Below, piece by piece: positions 3,016 through 34,143 of a stretch of DNA of 34,823 nucleotides. The notes under the pieces are model-generated. The model did no database searches. It was not told the origin of the DNA and was given only the letters and a program-made list of their open reading frames with translations. A program made the position numbers and the translations under genes. Source of the stretch: a bacterium (GTDB lineage: Bacteria > UBP6 > UBA1177); assembly GCA_016290135.1 (NCBI GenBank), contig JAEESW010000025.1, forward strand, positions 1-34,823, in the 5' to 3' direction. Every line of letters begins with the position of its first letter. Position 1 is the stretch's first letter.

Positions 3016-3042
3016 GGGCTTCCTTCGGGAAGCCCTTTTTTT
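3016..3042 (+). terminator. Rho-independent terminator after the aminotransferase
   Basis: Perfect 8-bp stem GGGCTTCC / GGAAGCCC closed by a TTCG tetraloop and followed by seven T residues, 26 bp after the stop codon. Textbook intrinsic terminator. Confidence 0.95.
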
Positions 3043-3126: not shown

Positions 3127-3155
3127 ACCGCGTCTGAATTTTTGGAGGTTTCAAA

Positions 3156-4697
3156 ATGAAAAGAAATTTTTTGGTTTTCCTCTTTGTCTGCGGTCTCAGT
3201 TTTTCGCTTTTCGCGGAGCCGAGACTCCTCACGATCCTTTTTACAAACGATTCTCACGGTATGGCATGGGCGTTTGACGCTCCCGACAGTCCGAAAACAG
3301 GCGGTCTCGCGGCGCAGAAAACTCTTGTCGAGCAGATCAGGAACGAAGTCCAGCTCACGAACGGCGATGTTGTCGTCCTCAGCAGCGGAAACGTGACGAT
3401 GGGCGATCCCAGAAGCAATGTCTGCGAAAACCTGCCGATGATCTCGGGTATGAACCTGATCGGTTACGACGGGATGCTTATCGGAAGCCACGAATTCGAC
3501 TTCGGGATGAAAACTTTCGAAAAAATGCAGAAAGAGGCGAGATTCCCGTTCATGTCTGCCAATCTTTTCTACAAAAATAACAAGCAGGTCGGCAAATCGT
3601 TCATCCAGAAAGAGATGATAAACGGCGTGAAAGTCGCTTTCGTCGGTATCACGACTCCTGAACTTGAGAAGATCTCCAACGCCGGCGTCGAGGGTCTCGT
3701 AAAGGTCCAGGATCCGATCGAAGCTGCGAAAAAAGCAGTCGAAGAACTCAAGAAAAACAATGATTTCGTAGTCGTTCTTTCGAACCTCGGCTATTCAGAC
3801 AAGGAAGTCGATGCTGACGGCTATCCGAGCGACATCAAACTTGCAAAAGAAGTTCCCGGGATCGATCTCATCATCGGAGGAAGGACGAAAGTCCAGATGA
3901 ATGAGCCTGTTTACGTCAACAATGTTCCGATAATCCAGACAGAAGGGCTCGGAAAATGGGTCGGCAGATTCGACTTCTACTTCGAAGGCAAGGAGCTCGT
4001 CCAGAAGAATTTCAAGCTTTACCCGATAAACATCAAGGAAAAGATAGTTAAAAGCAACGGAAGCGTAACCTACGAAAACCGCGGCAAAGACCTTGTTGAA
4101 AATGAGGCTATGCTGAAAATGCTCAACGATTTCAACTGTGAATTTTCGACTCAGGTCGTAGGCGAACTTGCAGACTCTTTCAACGGCGAAAGGAATTTCG
4201 TACGCAACAATCCTTCGACTCTCGGCGTTTTCATCGCATCTGTCATGAAGGAAAGAGCAAATGTCGACATCGCTTTTGCAAACGGCGGCGCGATCAGGCA
4301 GGGGCTCAACCGCGGCATAGTCAACGAGATGGATATCTACAGCGTTTTCCCGTTCGAAGACACGATCGTCACAGGTTCGATCAGCGGCTCGCAGCTTGAG
4401 GAAGTCATCAACCTTTCGCTCAAAAACAAAGGGCAGGGCGGTTTCCTCCACTTCTACGGCGTTGAATTCTCCGTTTCCGGCGGAAAAGCATCGAACATCA
4501 AAGTAAACGGTGCCGCTCTCGATGCAGGCAAGACCTATACTTTCGCAGTAAATTCCTTCGTTGCGGGCGGCGGCGACGGCTTCGAAATGATGCCGAAACT
4601 CAAACTCAACGACACAAAGATCTCCGTTCCTGCGGCAGTCATCGAATACATCAAACGCGAAAAATACATCGAACCCCCGAAAGTTTCTGGCAAATAG
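3156..4697 (+). CDS. Secreted 5'-nucleotidase (UshA-like) family protein with degraded metal site
   Basis: 513 residues: Sec signal peptide (1-20, likely cut after FSLFA), N-terminal metallophosphatase-type domain (about 24-270) and C-terminal 5'-nucleotidase domain (about 330-500). The family normally hydrolyses nucleotides in the periplasm with two metals. Here the first metal motif is kept (NDSHG, D32 and H34), as are the catalytic pair H112 and D115 in SHEFD. Four other sites differ: N79 in SSGNV replaces the bridging Asp, S111 replaces Asn of GNHE, N210 in VLSNLGY replaces a His, and R243/K245 in GGRTK replace the His-x-His/Gln pair. The second domain looks intact (NGGAIRQGL, VFPFEDTIV, NSFVAGGGDGFE). 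Start chosen at the ATG after TTGGAGG. I infer a binding protein or altered enzyme rather than a normal nucleotidase. Confidence 0.9.
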   Translation: MKRNFLVFLFVCGLSFSLFAEPRLLTILFTNDSHGMAWAFDAPDSPKTGGLAAQKTLVEQIRNEVQLTNGDVVVLSSGNVTMGDPRSNVCENLPMISGMNLIGYDGMLIGSHEFDFGMKTFEKMQKEARFPFMSANLFYKNNKQVGKSFIQKEMINGVKVAFVGITTPELEKISNAGVEGLVKVQDPIEAAKKAVEELKKNNDFVVVLSNLGYSDKEVDADGYPSDIKLAKEVPGIDLIIGGRTKVQMNEPVYVNNVPIIQTEGLGKWVGRFDFYFEGKELVQKNFKLYPINIKEKIVKSNGSVTYENRGKDLVENEAMLKMLNDFNCEFSTQVVGELADSFNGERNFVRNNPSTLGVFIASVMKERANVDIAFANGGAIRQGLNRGIVNEMDIYSVFPFEDTIVTGSISGSQLEEVINLSLKNKGQGGFLHFYGVEFSVSGGKASNIKVNGAALDAGKTYTFAVNSFVAGGGDGFEMMPKLKLNDTKISVPAAVIEYIKREKYIEPPKVSGK

Positions 4698-5902: not shown

Positions 5903-6727
5903 TCAACAAGTTTTCCCTGAATTTTTATCTGTTAGCAGTCGTTGTTCAGCGACATTTTCAAGTATTTGCATCTGCTGAATGGCGATTTTGTTGAGTTTTT
6001 CTATACGCTCGGACTGCGGAAACCCGTCATTTATGAAAACTGCGTTCAAATTTTCCATATTTGAAAGGCAGATCAGCTGATTTATCGTGGCATAATCGCG
6101 GATATTGCCGGAAAGTTCCGGATTGCTATCGCGCCACTCTTTTGCAGTCATTCCAAAGAGCGCGACATTAAGCATATCGGCTTCATCGGCATAGACAAAA
6201 GACTTTTGAGCCGCTGTAAGTTCAGGCGGGATCAGGTTACGGCTGACTGCGCTCGTGTGAATGTGATAGTTTATCTTCGCAAGTTCGCGTTTTGCGCTCC
6301 AGCCGAGCTGTTTCTGTTCTTCTGCTTTAAGACGCTGAAAATCTTTGACCATATATATCTTGAATTCCGGGCTGATCCACATCGCAAATTCAAAGGCTAT
6401 GTCTTTGTGAGCGTAAGTGCCGCCGTAACGCCCCGCCTTTGCCTGCAGACTTACAGCGTGTGTCCGTTCCACAAACTCTTTTACGCTTATCTTGAAACTG
6501 TTCAGACCTGACCGGCTTTTAATTGTGGCGAATTCGCTATAATTAAAATTTGGATTGTAAACTTCCTCCCAAATACCGATATACTCCAAAGTGTTTCTAT
6601 TTCTAAGCCAGTCGCTGACAAAAAAATCACCGTCTTTTGCTTTCAGCATATCAGTCAGACAAAGATAATCCTCGTTGTTCACACGAATTACCGAAATAGT
6701 CTCACCTTTCACTGTTAACTTTTGCAT
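5903..6727 (-). CDS. KilA-N domain protein, chromosomal orphan
   Basis: 274 residues from the ATG at 6727, chosen because GGAGGTTCAA precedes it; upstream in-frame codons (to 6805) read through the promoter region. The N-terminal third is a KilA-N domain: ISVIRVNNEDYLCLTDML, then SRSGLNSFKISVKEF, and the diagnostic GRYGGTYAHKDIAFEFAMW followed by ISPEFKIYMVKDFQRLK. The C-terminal part (about 150-274) is a conserved companion region (RELAKINYHIHT, FVYADEADMLNVALFGMTAKEWR) ending in a helical tail. KilA-N is a DNA-binding domain of phages and large DNA viruses, also found alone in many bacterial chromosomes. No phage genes are near. It converges on the DUF1566 gene with only 31 bp between. Function unknown; regulator or phage remnant. 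Confidence 0.88.
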   Translation of the reverse strand: MQKLTVKGETISVIRVNNEDYLCLTDMLKAKDGDFFVSDWLRNRNTLEYIGIWEEVYNPNFNYSEFATIKSRSGLNSFKISVKEFVERTHAVSLQAKAGRYGGTYAHKDIAFEFAMWISPEFKIYMVKDFQRLKAEEQKQLGWSAKRELAKINYHIHTSAVSRNLIPPELTAAQKSFVYADEADMLNVALFGMTAKEWRDSNPELSGNIRDYATINQLICLSNMENLNAVFINDGFPQSERIEKLNKIAIQQMQILENVAEQRLLTDKNSGKTC

Positions 6728-6767
6728 TTGAACCTCCAAAGATATCAAAGAAAATTTTCTGATAAAT

Positions 6768-6796
6768 AGAATAGAAATTTTGACAGACAAGTCAAA
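6768..6796 (-). promoter_or_regulatory. Promoter with overlapping inverted repeat for the KilA-N gene
   Basis: Minus-strand TTGACT (6795-6790), 16-bp spacer, TATTCT (6773-6768), about 40 bp before the start. The -35 box lies within an inverted repeat TTTGAC-AGACAA-GTCAAA (6779-6796), a plausible operator for repression, possibly by the KilA-N protein itself. Boxes are seen; the operator role is inference. Confidence 0.45.
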
Positions 6797-6966
6797 TTTT
6801 ATCATATAAAATTTATCATAAATTCTAATTGTTTAGTGATTCGTCTCTTTTTCAAAGGTATTTACTTCAATTTTCAAAAAATATTGCTAAGATACTTCGC
6901 TTTTGCGTTTTTGTGCTTATATGGAGTCGCAAGCTCTTTTATGTGTGAAATTTTTGGGAGAAATAT

Positions 6967-10084: not shown

Positions 10085-11296
10085 ATGGGAAAAACAATCA
10101 TTGAAAAGATTTTTTACAACCATCTGATCGACAAAAACGAGCCTGTTACTCCGGGTTCGATCGTTTGGATCAATATCGACTACAAAAGTGCGAGGGATTT
10201 CGGCGGAGCAAACGTCGTCAACAACCTCGAAAGCAGTTTTTCCGGCTCTTTGATAGCTGACAGAGAGCGCACGATGTTCACTTTCGACTGCGTTGCCCCT
10301 GCAAAAACGATACCTTATGCCGTAAACCAGCAGAGATGCAGGGTCTTTGCGAGAAAGGAAGGACTCAAGGTATACGATGTCGATTCGGGGATCGGTTCAC
10401 ACATCCTCATCGACGAATACGCAAAGCCGGGAATGACGATCGTCAGCACCGACAGCCACTTCAACATCATGGGTGCAATAAGCTGCTTCGGCCAGGGAAT
10501 GGGCGATGTCGATATTTCCTACATCTGGAAGACGGGCAGGACCTGGTTCGAAGTGCCGGAAAGTGTGAAACTCACTCTCAAAGGCAGACGCAAAGCCGGC
10601 ATCAAAGCGAAAGACATCGTTCTTTTCATGCTCAAAAAGTTCGGTTCGCGCACTTTCTTAGGTCAGGTCGTCGAGCTTTATGGCGCTGAAGCTGAAAAAC
10701 TCACTCTTGACGAGAGAGTCACGATCGCGAGCATGGGGACGGAGATGGGTGTTATTTCGATAATGATCCCGACGACAGGGCTTGAAGGTCTTGAAGAGAT
10801 CAAGGCCGATCCTGACGCGAAATATGCTGCTGAATACGAGCTCGATCTTGATGCGCTCACGGAGCCTTTAGTTGCTGCTCCGCCGCATCCGCACAATGTC
10901 CATAATGTCAGCGAATTCGCAGGAAAGGCGGTTGATACAGTCTTTATCGGAAGTTGCACGAACGGCAGGATATCCGATTTTGAAGATGTCGCGGCGATCG
11001 TAAAAGGCAAGAAGATCAAGACGAACGGATATATTGTTCCTTCCTCGCGCAGGATCTACGGCGAACTTATGAAATCGGGCGTTCTCGAAACGCTCTTCGA
11101 TGCAGGTTTTGTAATCGCAAATCCTGGTTGCGGCGGCTGTGCTTCAGGCCAGATCGGCATGACGGGCGACGGTGAAGTCATTGTTTCGACTTCGAACCGC
11201 AATTTCAAAGGCAAACAGGGGAACGGTGAAGTTCATCTGGCCAGCCCTGCAACGGCAGCATATTCTGCTTTGAAAGGGGAGATCTGTGGATTCTGA
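10085..11296 (+). CDS. leuC: LeuC/aconitase-family dehydratase, large subunit
   Basis: 403 residues. Large subunit of a two-subunit aconitase-family hydro-lyase (isopropylmalate, homoaconitate or related). 4Fe-4S ligands: C291 in GSCTNGR, C349 and C352 in NPGCGGCASG. TDSH 122-125 and the substrate-site NRNF (371-374) are present. Two departures from the common pattern: D68 is followed by Cys (FDCVAP) where the family usually has Asp-His, and the NRNFxGR arginine is Lys377. The FGQGMGDVDI...KTGRTWFEVPES block is family-typical. The small subunit leuD lies three genes downstream in the same direction. No leuA or leuB is visible, so leucine synthesis is likely but not proven. Confidence 0.85.
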   Translation: MGKTIIEKIFYNHLIDKNEPVTPGSIVWINIDYKSARDFGGANVVNNLESSFSGSLIADRERTMFTFDCVAPAKTIPYAVNQQRCRVFARKEGLKVYDVDSGIGSHILIDEYAKPGMTIVSTDSHFNIMGAISCFGQGMGDVDISYIWKTGRTWFEVPESVKLTLKGRRKAGIKAKDIVLFMLKKFGSRTFLGQVVELYGAEAEKLTLDERVTIASMGTEMGVISIMIPTTGLEGLEEIKADPDAKYAAEYELDLDALTEPLVAAPPHPHNVHNVSEFAGKAVDTVFIGSCTNGRISDFEDVAAIVKGKKIKTNGYIVPSSRRIYGELMKSGVLETLFDAGFVIANPGCGGCASGQIGMTGDGEVIVSTSNRNFKGKQGNGEVHLASPATAAYSALKGEICGF

Positions 11297-13549: not shown

Positions 13550-14056
13550 ATGGCAATCATCAAAGGAAAAGTTTTTGTTTACGGACACGATGTGAACACC
13601 GATGTCATTTTTCCCGGAAAATACACCTATACGGTCACCGATCCGAAAGAGATCGCATCTCATGCTCTTGAGGATGAAGACCCTGATTTTATCAAGGAAG
13701 TGAAACCGGGAGATATTATTATCGCCGGCAAAAATTTCGGCTGCGGTTCTTCGAGAGAGCAGGCTGCATTCTGCTTCAAATACCTTGGAATGGGGGCGGT
13801 CATCGCTGAATCATACAGCAGGATCTACTTCAGGAACTGCATCAATGCCGGACTTCCTGCGCTTGAGATCAAAAACCTTCTCGGCAAAGTAAAAAGGGGA
13901 GATACAGTTGAGATAAACACTGAGACAGGCACCGTTATTCTTCCTGACGGTTCTACCGTGTCGTTCCCTCCGCTTCCTCCCGAAGTCGACGAGATCATGC
14001 AGAAAGGCGGCCTCGACGAATACATCAAAGCAAAACTCGCTGCGAAGAATCAATAA
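13550..14056 (+). CDS. leuD: LeuD-type dehydratase small subunit
   Basis: 168 residues, the length of archaeal/LeuD2-type swivelling subunits. Signatures: GHDVNTDVIFPGKYTY (12-27), GKNFGCGSSREQAA (60-73) and the SRIYFRNCINAGLP segment. It supplies the substrate-specificity loop and the swivelling domain to the LeuC-like partner. In this family the YLRT/YLRL-type loop sets the substrate; here the corresponding short loop around KYTYT does not let me choose between isopropylmalate and related acids. AAGGAGG lies before the ATG. Last gene of the operon; an octamer-repeat element follows 30 bp after the stop. Confidence 0.9.
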   Translation: MAIIKGKVFVYGHDVNTDVIFPGKYTYTVTDPKEIASHALEDEDPDFIKEVKPGDIIIAGKNFGCGSSREQAAFCFKYLGMGAVIAESYSRIYFRNCINAGLPALEIKNLLGKVKRGDTVEINTETGTVILPDGSTVSFPPLPPEVDEIMQKGGLDEYIKAKLAAKNQ

Positions 14057-32443: not shown

Positions 32444-34114
32444 TTATTCTCCTGAATTTCTGACGCACATTACATTGTTCTTGCCGGTTTTTGCCGAAGG
32501 AGCCGTAAGACCTGTTTTTGTCGCTATTTTCCATGCGCTTGTTGAAGTGCCTGTCTCATTTTTCGGGGTTTTGGAAGTCGAACTCCAGAGAGAAATGTTG
32601 TCAATGTCGGGGAAAACAGTTGCAGGATTATATTTTGTGTAATCCATAATGGAAATGAGTTCATTTATATTCGGAAGTCTCCAGTCGGTATTGCCGCCGA
32701 AAGTGAGGTTTTCGCAGTACTCAAGAGCTTCGAGCCATGTTTTTCCGGTCACATTCGATTTTGTCCACTGAAGTCCGCTTGCCGTATCTGTTACGACGAT
32801 TCCCCCGTCAAGCTGTTCTGACTCAAAAAGGATCATTCCTTTTCTGAAAACGTCGCCTCTGACGCATACTGCGTAATTGGTTTTTGTTTCCGCATAGTTG
32901 TAGATTCCCGTCGAATTGGTCGGAGAGAAGTTTATTCCGAGACGGGAGACTGTGCTCGAACCCGAAGCATAGAGGGTGTTAGACCAGAAAGCGCCGCTCG
33001 TCGGGAAATCCGGGAAAACTGAATCATCGACAAAATAGTAGAAAGAAAAATCTATGATCGTTGCAAGTTCATGGATTTCCGGAAGTCTCCAGTCATCATG
33101 ACCGCCGTATTCGAGATTTTCACAGTAATTTACAGCTTCTTCAATCGTTGCAAGCGTGCCGTTATAAGTTCGCTGCCATTCAAGACCGGTGTTTGCATCA
33201 ATGTTGGTCGGGTTGCTATCGGTACCGCCTGTCGTGAAATTTCTTGCCGCGCAGGAGCTGCTATGCTGTGCATCCTGTCCGAAATATCCCGATTCAGGGT
33301 CTGAGTCGCACTCTTCGAGCGGCTTGTTGTCTGTTCCGTAACAGAGTGCCTGACCGGTGCAGGAAAGAGTGTAGGGTTCCTGAATCACTTCGGGTTCCTC
33401 TGTCGGTTCTTCGGTAGGTTCCTCTGTCGGATCGTCAGTCGGTTCTTCCGTAGGTTCCCCGGTAGGTTCATCCGTAGGTTCTTCCGTCGGCTCGTTGGTC
33501 GGGTCTTCGGTCGGTTCTATCGGAGCAGTGCCGGTTTCAACGAGTATGAAAGCGTAACTTGAGAAGTGTCCTGCGTTCATCATGATCGGGTCTCCTGCCA
33601 TGATCGGGTCGCCTCCCATGATCGGGTCTCCGGCCATGATCGGGTCTCCTGCCATTATCGGATCTCCGCCCATGATCGGGTCTCCGCCTGCTTCGCGGTG
33701 AGACCACTTCGTCCCTGCGAGGAATGCCGGAACTACGGCCATGCCTTCAGGAACAGCCGTATATTCCGAATCGACTGTCAGAGTGATCGTTACGTCCTTG
33801 TTGAAGACAAGTCCCGAAGGCTCGAAAGTTACTACTTTTGAAACGAGTTTTCCTTCATCCGGAAAGCCTTTCTTTTCATAAAGAGTCATCGTGATCTCTG
33901 TATCTTCCTCGAGAGCTCCGGCCGGTATCTCTATCTTAGCGGAGCCGTCGTCTGTTGAGATCGTGCCGCCTTCACTTGCAGACACAGCCATTTTGGCGGT
34001 AGCGATCTGCTGCTTTGTGCCGTTGTTTTCCGGCTCTTTTTCCTTTTTGCTTCCGCCGCATGCAGAGAGTGTAAGAATCAAAACCATGAAAATTGAGATC
34101 AGAAACTTCTTCAT
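32444..34114 (-). CDS. Repeat-rich lipoprotein: ZU5-like domain plus two DUF1566 domains
   Basis: 556 residues from the ATG at 34114 (GGAGG 5 nt upstream; an ATG four codons earlier at 34126 overlaps that site). Lipobox LSAC (Cys19). A ZU5-like domain (about 47-190) has ISTDDGSAKIEIPAGALEED and VVTFEPSGLVF; it is interrupted at 143-178 by six copies of (G/A)GDPIM just before the usual HFSSYAF strand. A linker of about ten EPT(E/D/N/G) units (200-241) leads to two DUF1566 domains (about 295-420 and 430-556), each with the WRLP and CVR hallmarks. Probably a long stalked surface protein that displays two binding domains. In an operon with the MFS gene. Confidence 0.88.
   Translation of the reverse strand: MKKFLISIFMVLILTLSACGGSKKEKEPENNGTKQQIATAKMAVSASEGGTISTDDGSAKIEIPAGALEEDTEITMTLYEKKGFPDEGKLVSKVVTFEPSGLVFNKDVTITLTVDSEYTAVPEGMAVVPAFLAGTKWSHREAGGDPIMGGDPIMAGDPIMAGDPIMGGDPIMAGDPIMMNAGHFSSYAFILVETGTAPIEPTEDPTNEPTEEPTDEPTGEPTEEPTDDPTEEPTEEPTEEPEVIQEPYTLSCTGQALCYGTDNKPLEECDSDPESGYFGQDAQHSSSCAARNFTTGGTDSNPTNIDANTGLEWQRTYNGTLATIEEAVNYCENLEYGGHDDWRLPEIHELATIIDFSFYYFVDDSVFPDFPTSGAFWSNTLYASGSSTVSRLGINFSPTNSTGIYNYAETKTNYAVCVRGDVFRKGMILFESEQLDGGIVVTDTASGLQWTKSNVTGKTWLEALEYCENLTFGGNTDWRLPNINELISIMDYTKYNPATVFPDIDNISLWSSTSKTPKNETGTSTSAWKIATKTGLTAPSAKTGKNNVMCVRNSGE
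33392..33517 (-). repeat. 12-bp tandem repeat (Thr-Pro-acidic linker)
   Basis: About ten degenerate 12-bp units encoding EPTE/DPTN/EPTD/EPTG in the lipoprotein linker. All are multiples of three, so length change keeps the frame. Confidence 0.85.
33581..33688 (-). repeat. 18-bp tandem repeat, six copies
   Basis: Six uninterrupted 18-bp units (108 bp) encoding (G/A)GDPIM. Units differ at a few positions, mostly the first codon pair, and one unit (33653-33670) has three or so changes. Confidence 0.9.
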
Positions 34115-34143
34115 TTTTGCCTCCATTAAAAAAATGACGGAAA

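Follow-up and report, generated by a model that had tools for sequence, protein, structure and literature searches.

A conserved UshA-type protein of the uncultured phylum UBP6 with most metal ligands replaced: a probable nucleotide-binding pseudoenzyme

Introduction

In UshA of Escherichia coli, a bifunctional UDP-sugar hydrolase/5'-nucleotidase (family model NF007109), metal site 1 is formed by D41, H43, D84 and Q254 and site 2 by D84, N116, H217 and H252. Three arginines of the clamp in the C-terminal domain hold the phosphate of the substrate, and D504 holds the ribose. The nucleobase stacks between F429 and F498, and H117 plays a catalytic role (PMC7922932); the substrate is bound on the C-terminal domain and is then brought to the dimetal site by a rotation of 96 degrees (PMC8475336, PMC7922932).

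Here we analyse a homologue encoded in a stretch of 34,823 nucleotides (contig JAEESW010000025.1 of assembly GCA_016290135.1; hereafter, the window) from the uncultured phylum UBP6, also named Candidatus Asafiota (PMC11382960). The nearest named relatives of this genome are MAGs from rumen and gut. Annotation would label the protein a nucleotidase. The CD73 and CpdB families share with it the superfamily fold and the mechanism class, but their characterised members have a dimetal site, unlike the window protein. A phosphoesterase-type domain that was kept after losing metal ligands, as here, is the PHP domain of E. coli DNA polymerase III (PMC3666897), although the fold there is unrelated and the domain plays a structural part in the polymerase. 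Our literature searches found no description of a metal-free pseudoenzyme branch (pseudo-5'-nucleotidase) of the UshA/CD73 family.

Results

Gene, homology and gene context

The features of the gene are collected in Table 1. Besides a match to E. coli UshA over nearly the whole length (PDB 1ush, E=2e-69), the window protein shares with this enzyme the two-domain fold, the C-domain clamp, the His-Asp dyad and a signal-peptide-like start. It is also recognised by NF007109 (E=4e-96, 322.8 bits), below the equivalog cut-off of 600 bits, which the intact paralogue of the same genome (384.5 bits) does not reach either. The Metallophos family PF00149 gave no match in the window protein at E up to 1. 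The score of this profile drops stepwise, from 50.9 bits in the intact paralogue to 24.5 in another altered copy (L020) and to none in the window protein; this order parallels the stepwise loss of ligands described below, and the fold is still recognised by PDB and Foldseek comparison.

Table 1. Features of the pseudo-UshA gene and of its product, in window coordinates
Feature	Position	Strand	Basis
Intrinsic-terminator-like hairpin with T run, between the upstream aminotransferase gene and the pseudo-UshA gene	3016..3042	+	Consensus match only; such sites in the region no commoner than expected by chance
Shine-Dalgarno GGAGG, strong, 7 nt 5' of the ATG	3144..3148	+	Sequence
Pseudo-UshA CDS, 513 aa	3156..4697	+	ORF translation, profile and PDB matches
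Putative Sec signal peptide MKRNFLVFLFVCGLSFSLFA, residues 1-20	3156..3215	+	Positive n-region, hydrophobic core; N-terminal helix in the model
D32 and H34 retained (UshA D41, H43; site 1 ligands)	3249..3257	+	Alignment
N79 where UshA has the bridging D84	3390..3392	+	Alignment
S111 where UshA has N116; H112 and D115 dyad retained (UshA H117, D120)	3486..3500	+	Alignment
N210 where UshA has H217	3783..3785	+	Alignment
R243 and K245 where UshA has H252 and Q254	3882..3890	+	Alignment
5_nucleotid_C substrate-binding domain (PF02872)	4158..4592	+	109.7 bits against a cut-off of 23.6
R346 and R350 retained (UshA R375, R379)	4191..4205	+	Alignment
R381 retained (UshA R410)	4296..4298	+	Alignment
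Base-stacking F400 retained (UshA F429); D402 (UshA N431; Asp in intact paralogues too)	4353..4361	+	Alignment
Base-stacking F468 (UshA F498) and D474 (UshA D504) retained	4557..4577	+	Alignment

The terminator-like hairpin that follows the upstream aminotransferase gene, of a kind that occurs in the region no more often than chance would give, suggests that the pseudo-UshA gene is its own transcription unit. Downstream of the altered copy in genus g1 lie ftsH, a lytic transglycosylase gene and pgsA, in some loci interrupted by DUF805 or further ORFs. The neighbours of the altered copy in genus g4 and family f3 are unlike those of g1, and the ftsH neighbourhood is not conserved there. When neighbours were compared across nine enlarged loci of altered copies, no gene context common to the families was found, nor any clear role from context. 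A PfkB/adenosine-kinase-like gene (named by eye from its translation) accompanies the intact paralogue in a conserved neighbourhood, which the altered copy does not have.

Metal site

The sequence-only reading had described a 5'-nucleotidase homologue in which most metal ligands are replaced, and every residue cited for it proved exact, as the ORF, the coordinates and the alignment to E. coli UshA all agree. Five of the seven ligand positions (D, H, D, N, H, H, Q/H) are changed in the window protein, unlike UshA, to N79, S111, N210, R243 and K245, and only D32 and H34 are kept. From the site assignments in UshA it follows that site 2 is left without any of its four ligands, whereas site 1 keeps two and gains a Lys. 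The catalytic dyad H112/D115 is present and is invariant across the clade of altered copies. No alternative residues were found in the metal site: the motifs are free of gaps and the structural model is confident, which rules out misplacement of the site residues by the alignment.

The replacements were compared with a control set of 70 rows, formed by UshA, homologues from the same genome and homologues from other phyla. At every ligand position, 62-68 of these rows retain the ligand, and most of those that do not are themselves degenerate copies. Moreover, 82 positions are invariant in 23 non-pseudo paralogues and UshA; seven of them are changed throughout the window's subclade, and four of these seven are metal ligands (hypergeometric p about 1e-4). 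The replacement of ligands in this subclade is thus more than chance.

Substrate clamp and predicted structure

The C-terminal substrate domain, whose persistence had also been claimed, is present with its PF02872 match and its clamp residues: R375/R379/R410/F429/F498/D504 of UshA are all kept in the alignment, as R346/R350/R381/F400/F468/D474. The clamp is kept through the whole UBP6 clade of altered copies; at position R346 the clade keeps the residue, with Lys in family f3, and most intact copies of the genus lack it.

A structure prediction, proposed earlier as a check, was obtained with AlphaFold2 from 31 aligned window and locus sequences, and it gave a UshA fold predicted with high confidence (mean pLDDT 89.6, pTM 0.84). 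The best Foldseek matches are UshA structures, with a TM score of 0.85 to the closed adenosine-phosphate complex 1ho5_A and of 0.63 to the open form 1hp1. The model, predicted without ligand, is near closed UshA and so agrees with, but does not demonstrate, an ability to close the domains.

A conserved clade beside an intact paralogue

The same genome carries a UshA-type paralogue (L002, C1:127671-129173) that is about 50% identical to the window protein and has the same architecture, but only the paralogue has every metal ligand. The altered copy is present in 18 of 28 UBP6 genomes: in the genus 12 of 15 have it, in the remainder of family f1 one of four, and in family f3 all five. N79, N210 and K245, together with D32, H34, H112 and D115, are invariant in all 18 members of the clade. 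S111 and R243 are found in the members of family f1, while family f3 retains N111 and H243, which indicates that the ligand losses came stepwise. In family f1, every genome with an altered copy also has the intact paralogue. The near-complete genomes G013, G016 and G018 do not have the altered copy, and thus the gene is dispensable.

The altered copies group together in a tree with outgroups (support 98/96; 99/95 with wider outgroups). When the site columns are masked, a branch with support of 98/100 parts them from all non-pseudo UBP6 copies, as an unrooted split. With masked sites and UshA alone as root, p-AU is 0.41 for holding the UBP6 altered copies together, and UshA sits on a branch too long to place the root; their strict monophyly is supported when the wider outgroups are used.

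Among the ten closest genomes, within the genus, dN/dS averages 0.051 in the altered gene and 0.074 in the intact paralogue. The altered gene is therefore under purifying selection at least as strong as that of the enzyme copy. A pseudogene, or an error of assembly or sequencing, is ruled out by these values and by the same residues in 12 MAGs of the genus. The conserved pseudoenzyme clade that the sequence-only reading had asked for does exist, with 18 members, fixed loss of ligands, tree support and a dN/dS of about 0.05.

In the family f3 genomes the other UshA copy (L060, L062, L063, L064) keeps the metal ligands and has GNHDLFFG, with Phe in place of the dyad Asp; a complete standard site is thus lacking from both UshA-type copies of these genomes. 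In the family f2 genome G019, the single close UshA-type copy (L023) has Gln for the first His of the metal site (TNDGQGM).

Independent loss of the metal site in another phylum

The control survey yielded a second set of metal-less UshA-like proteins (L108, L115, L116) in family f51 of another phylum. A search of this family found relatives in all nine of its genomes, with a degenerate copy in eight and a nearly intact copy (L138) in one. In the resulting metal-less clade (L137, L139-L145), the metal site and the substrate clamp are lost to varying degrees, and two members have the same replacements as the window's clade, R243/K245 in L137 and N79/S111/N210/K245 in L143. A common origin was rejected, as a joint clade of the UBP6 and f51 copies has a p-AU of 1.5e-4, and the same residues were thus reached independently. 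Metal-less UshA homologues that arose independently in another phylum are new here. Unlike the window's clade, the f51 clade is without the Arg and Phe residues of the clamp, and often without the dyad. Its present role is, for this reason, probably different from that of the UBP6 altered copies, and metal loss there need not imply nucleotide binding.

Discussion

We think that the window protein is probably a secreted, non-hydrolysing, nucleotide-binding pseudoenzyme with a metal-free site. This is what the sequence-only reading had suggested, and it now finds support in the conservation of the clade, the strong purifying selection, the C-domain residues for nucleotide binding that are kept, the signal-peptide-like start and the confidently predicted UshA fold. 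In this view, a UshA-type 5'-nucleotidase would have been duplicated long ago, giving rise to a secreted (periplasmic) protein that, having lost the two-metal centre, would no longer hydrolyse phosphate esters. The Asp-to-Asn and His-to-Asn changes would strip the site of charge and of the ligands that hold the metals, and Lys and Arg would bring positive charge there. K245, with R243 in the window's family, may take over the positive charge that the metals once provided and form a pair with D32 or with the phosphate of the ligand. The C-terminal clamp would still hold nucleobase, ribose and phosphate. The likeliest ligands would be nucleotides or similar molecules, for example UDP-sugars or CDP-alcohols, on which both domains would close without cutting. 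With the clamp and H112 present, the phosphate of the ligand would be held by K245/R243 in place of metals, and not attacked. Likely roles would be the capture or sensing of extracytoplasmic nucleotides, or the modulation of the active paralogue. The kept D32, H34 and H112-D115 dyad could still allow a little chemistry or the weak binding of one metal.

The constant company of an intact paralogue in family f1 would also suit a catalytically dead scaffold whose ligand is not a nucleotide, that is, a structural or protein-binding partner, such as one that regulates the active UshA paralogue or envelope proteins. The position of the gene beside ftsH, a lytic transglycosylase gene and pgsA in genus g1 points in the same direction, and the f51 clade shows that the scaffold can lose its clamp too. 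However, genus g4 and family f3 do not share that neighbourhood, and the clamp residues are kept in the entire UBP6 clade, so we regard a scaffold of this kind as unlikely.

Less likely still, and in our opinion quite improbable, is a protein that remains an enzyme with a different substrate, using either one metal on D32/H34/N79 or a metal-free acid-base chemistry of H112-D115 and K245. Calcineurin-like folds are capable of other chemistry, as exemplified by MslH, a metal-dependent epimerase (PMC10406935), and D32, H34 and the dyad are invariant in the clade. Against this, site 2 no longer has the bridging Asp or either of its His ligands, Lys and Arg at the site should repel a metal, and Pfam Metallophos fails to recognise the domain. 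Finally, the absence of the copy from several relatives would agree with a decaying, functionless duplicate, but this is extremely improbable for a gene with an unbroken frame in 12 of 12 genus copies, a dN/dS of about 0.05 and replaced residues that are invariant across families.

If the preferred reading of a protein that binds without cutting is true, the clade would represent an extracytoplasmic nucleotide trap or sensor evolved from an enzyme. It is conceivable, though we hold it as a rather doubtful extension, that bacteria have on more than one occasion derived periplasmic nucleotide-binding receptors from UshA by converting its metal centre into a fixed Lys/Arg 'cation mimic', so that a former hydrolase would capture or sense its ligand alongside the active paralogue. 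As the same substitutions occur in two phyla, the idea of Lys/Arg standing in for metal in a phosphoesterase is directly testable. Counts of UshA-like genes should be taken with caution, since they include copies that are presumably inactive.

Other features of the window

Near the pseudo-UshA gene there is an ORF with a KilA-N domain, which is common in phages (5903-6805, minus strand); it is absent beside the gene in the other loci compared. The window also contains LeuC-like (10085-11296) and LeuD-like (13550-14056) genes, named by eye from their translations as subunits of isopropylmalate isomerase, and glycosyltransferase-like and SPOR-like ORFs stand between them. A lipoprotein-like ORF at 32444-34126 (minus strand) carries tandem repeats of the GGDPIMAGDPIM type together with Lcl_C/DUF1566-like repeats.
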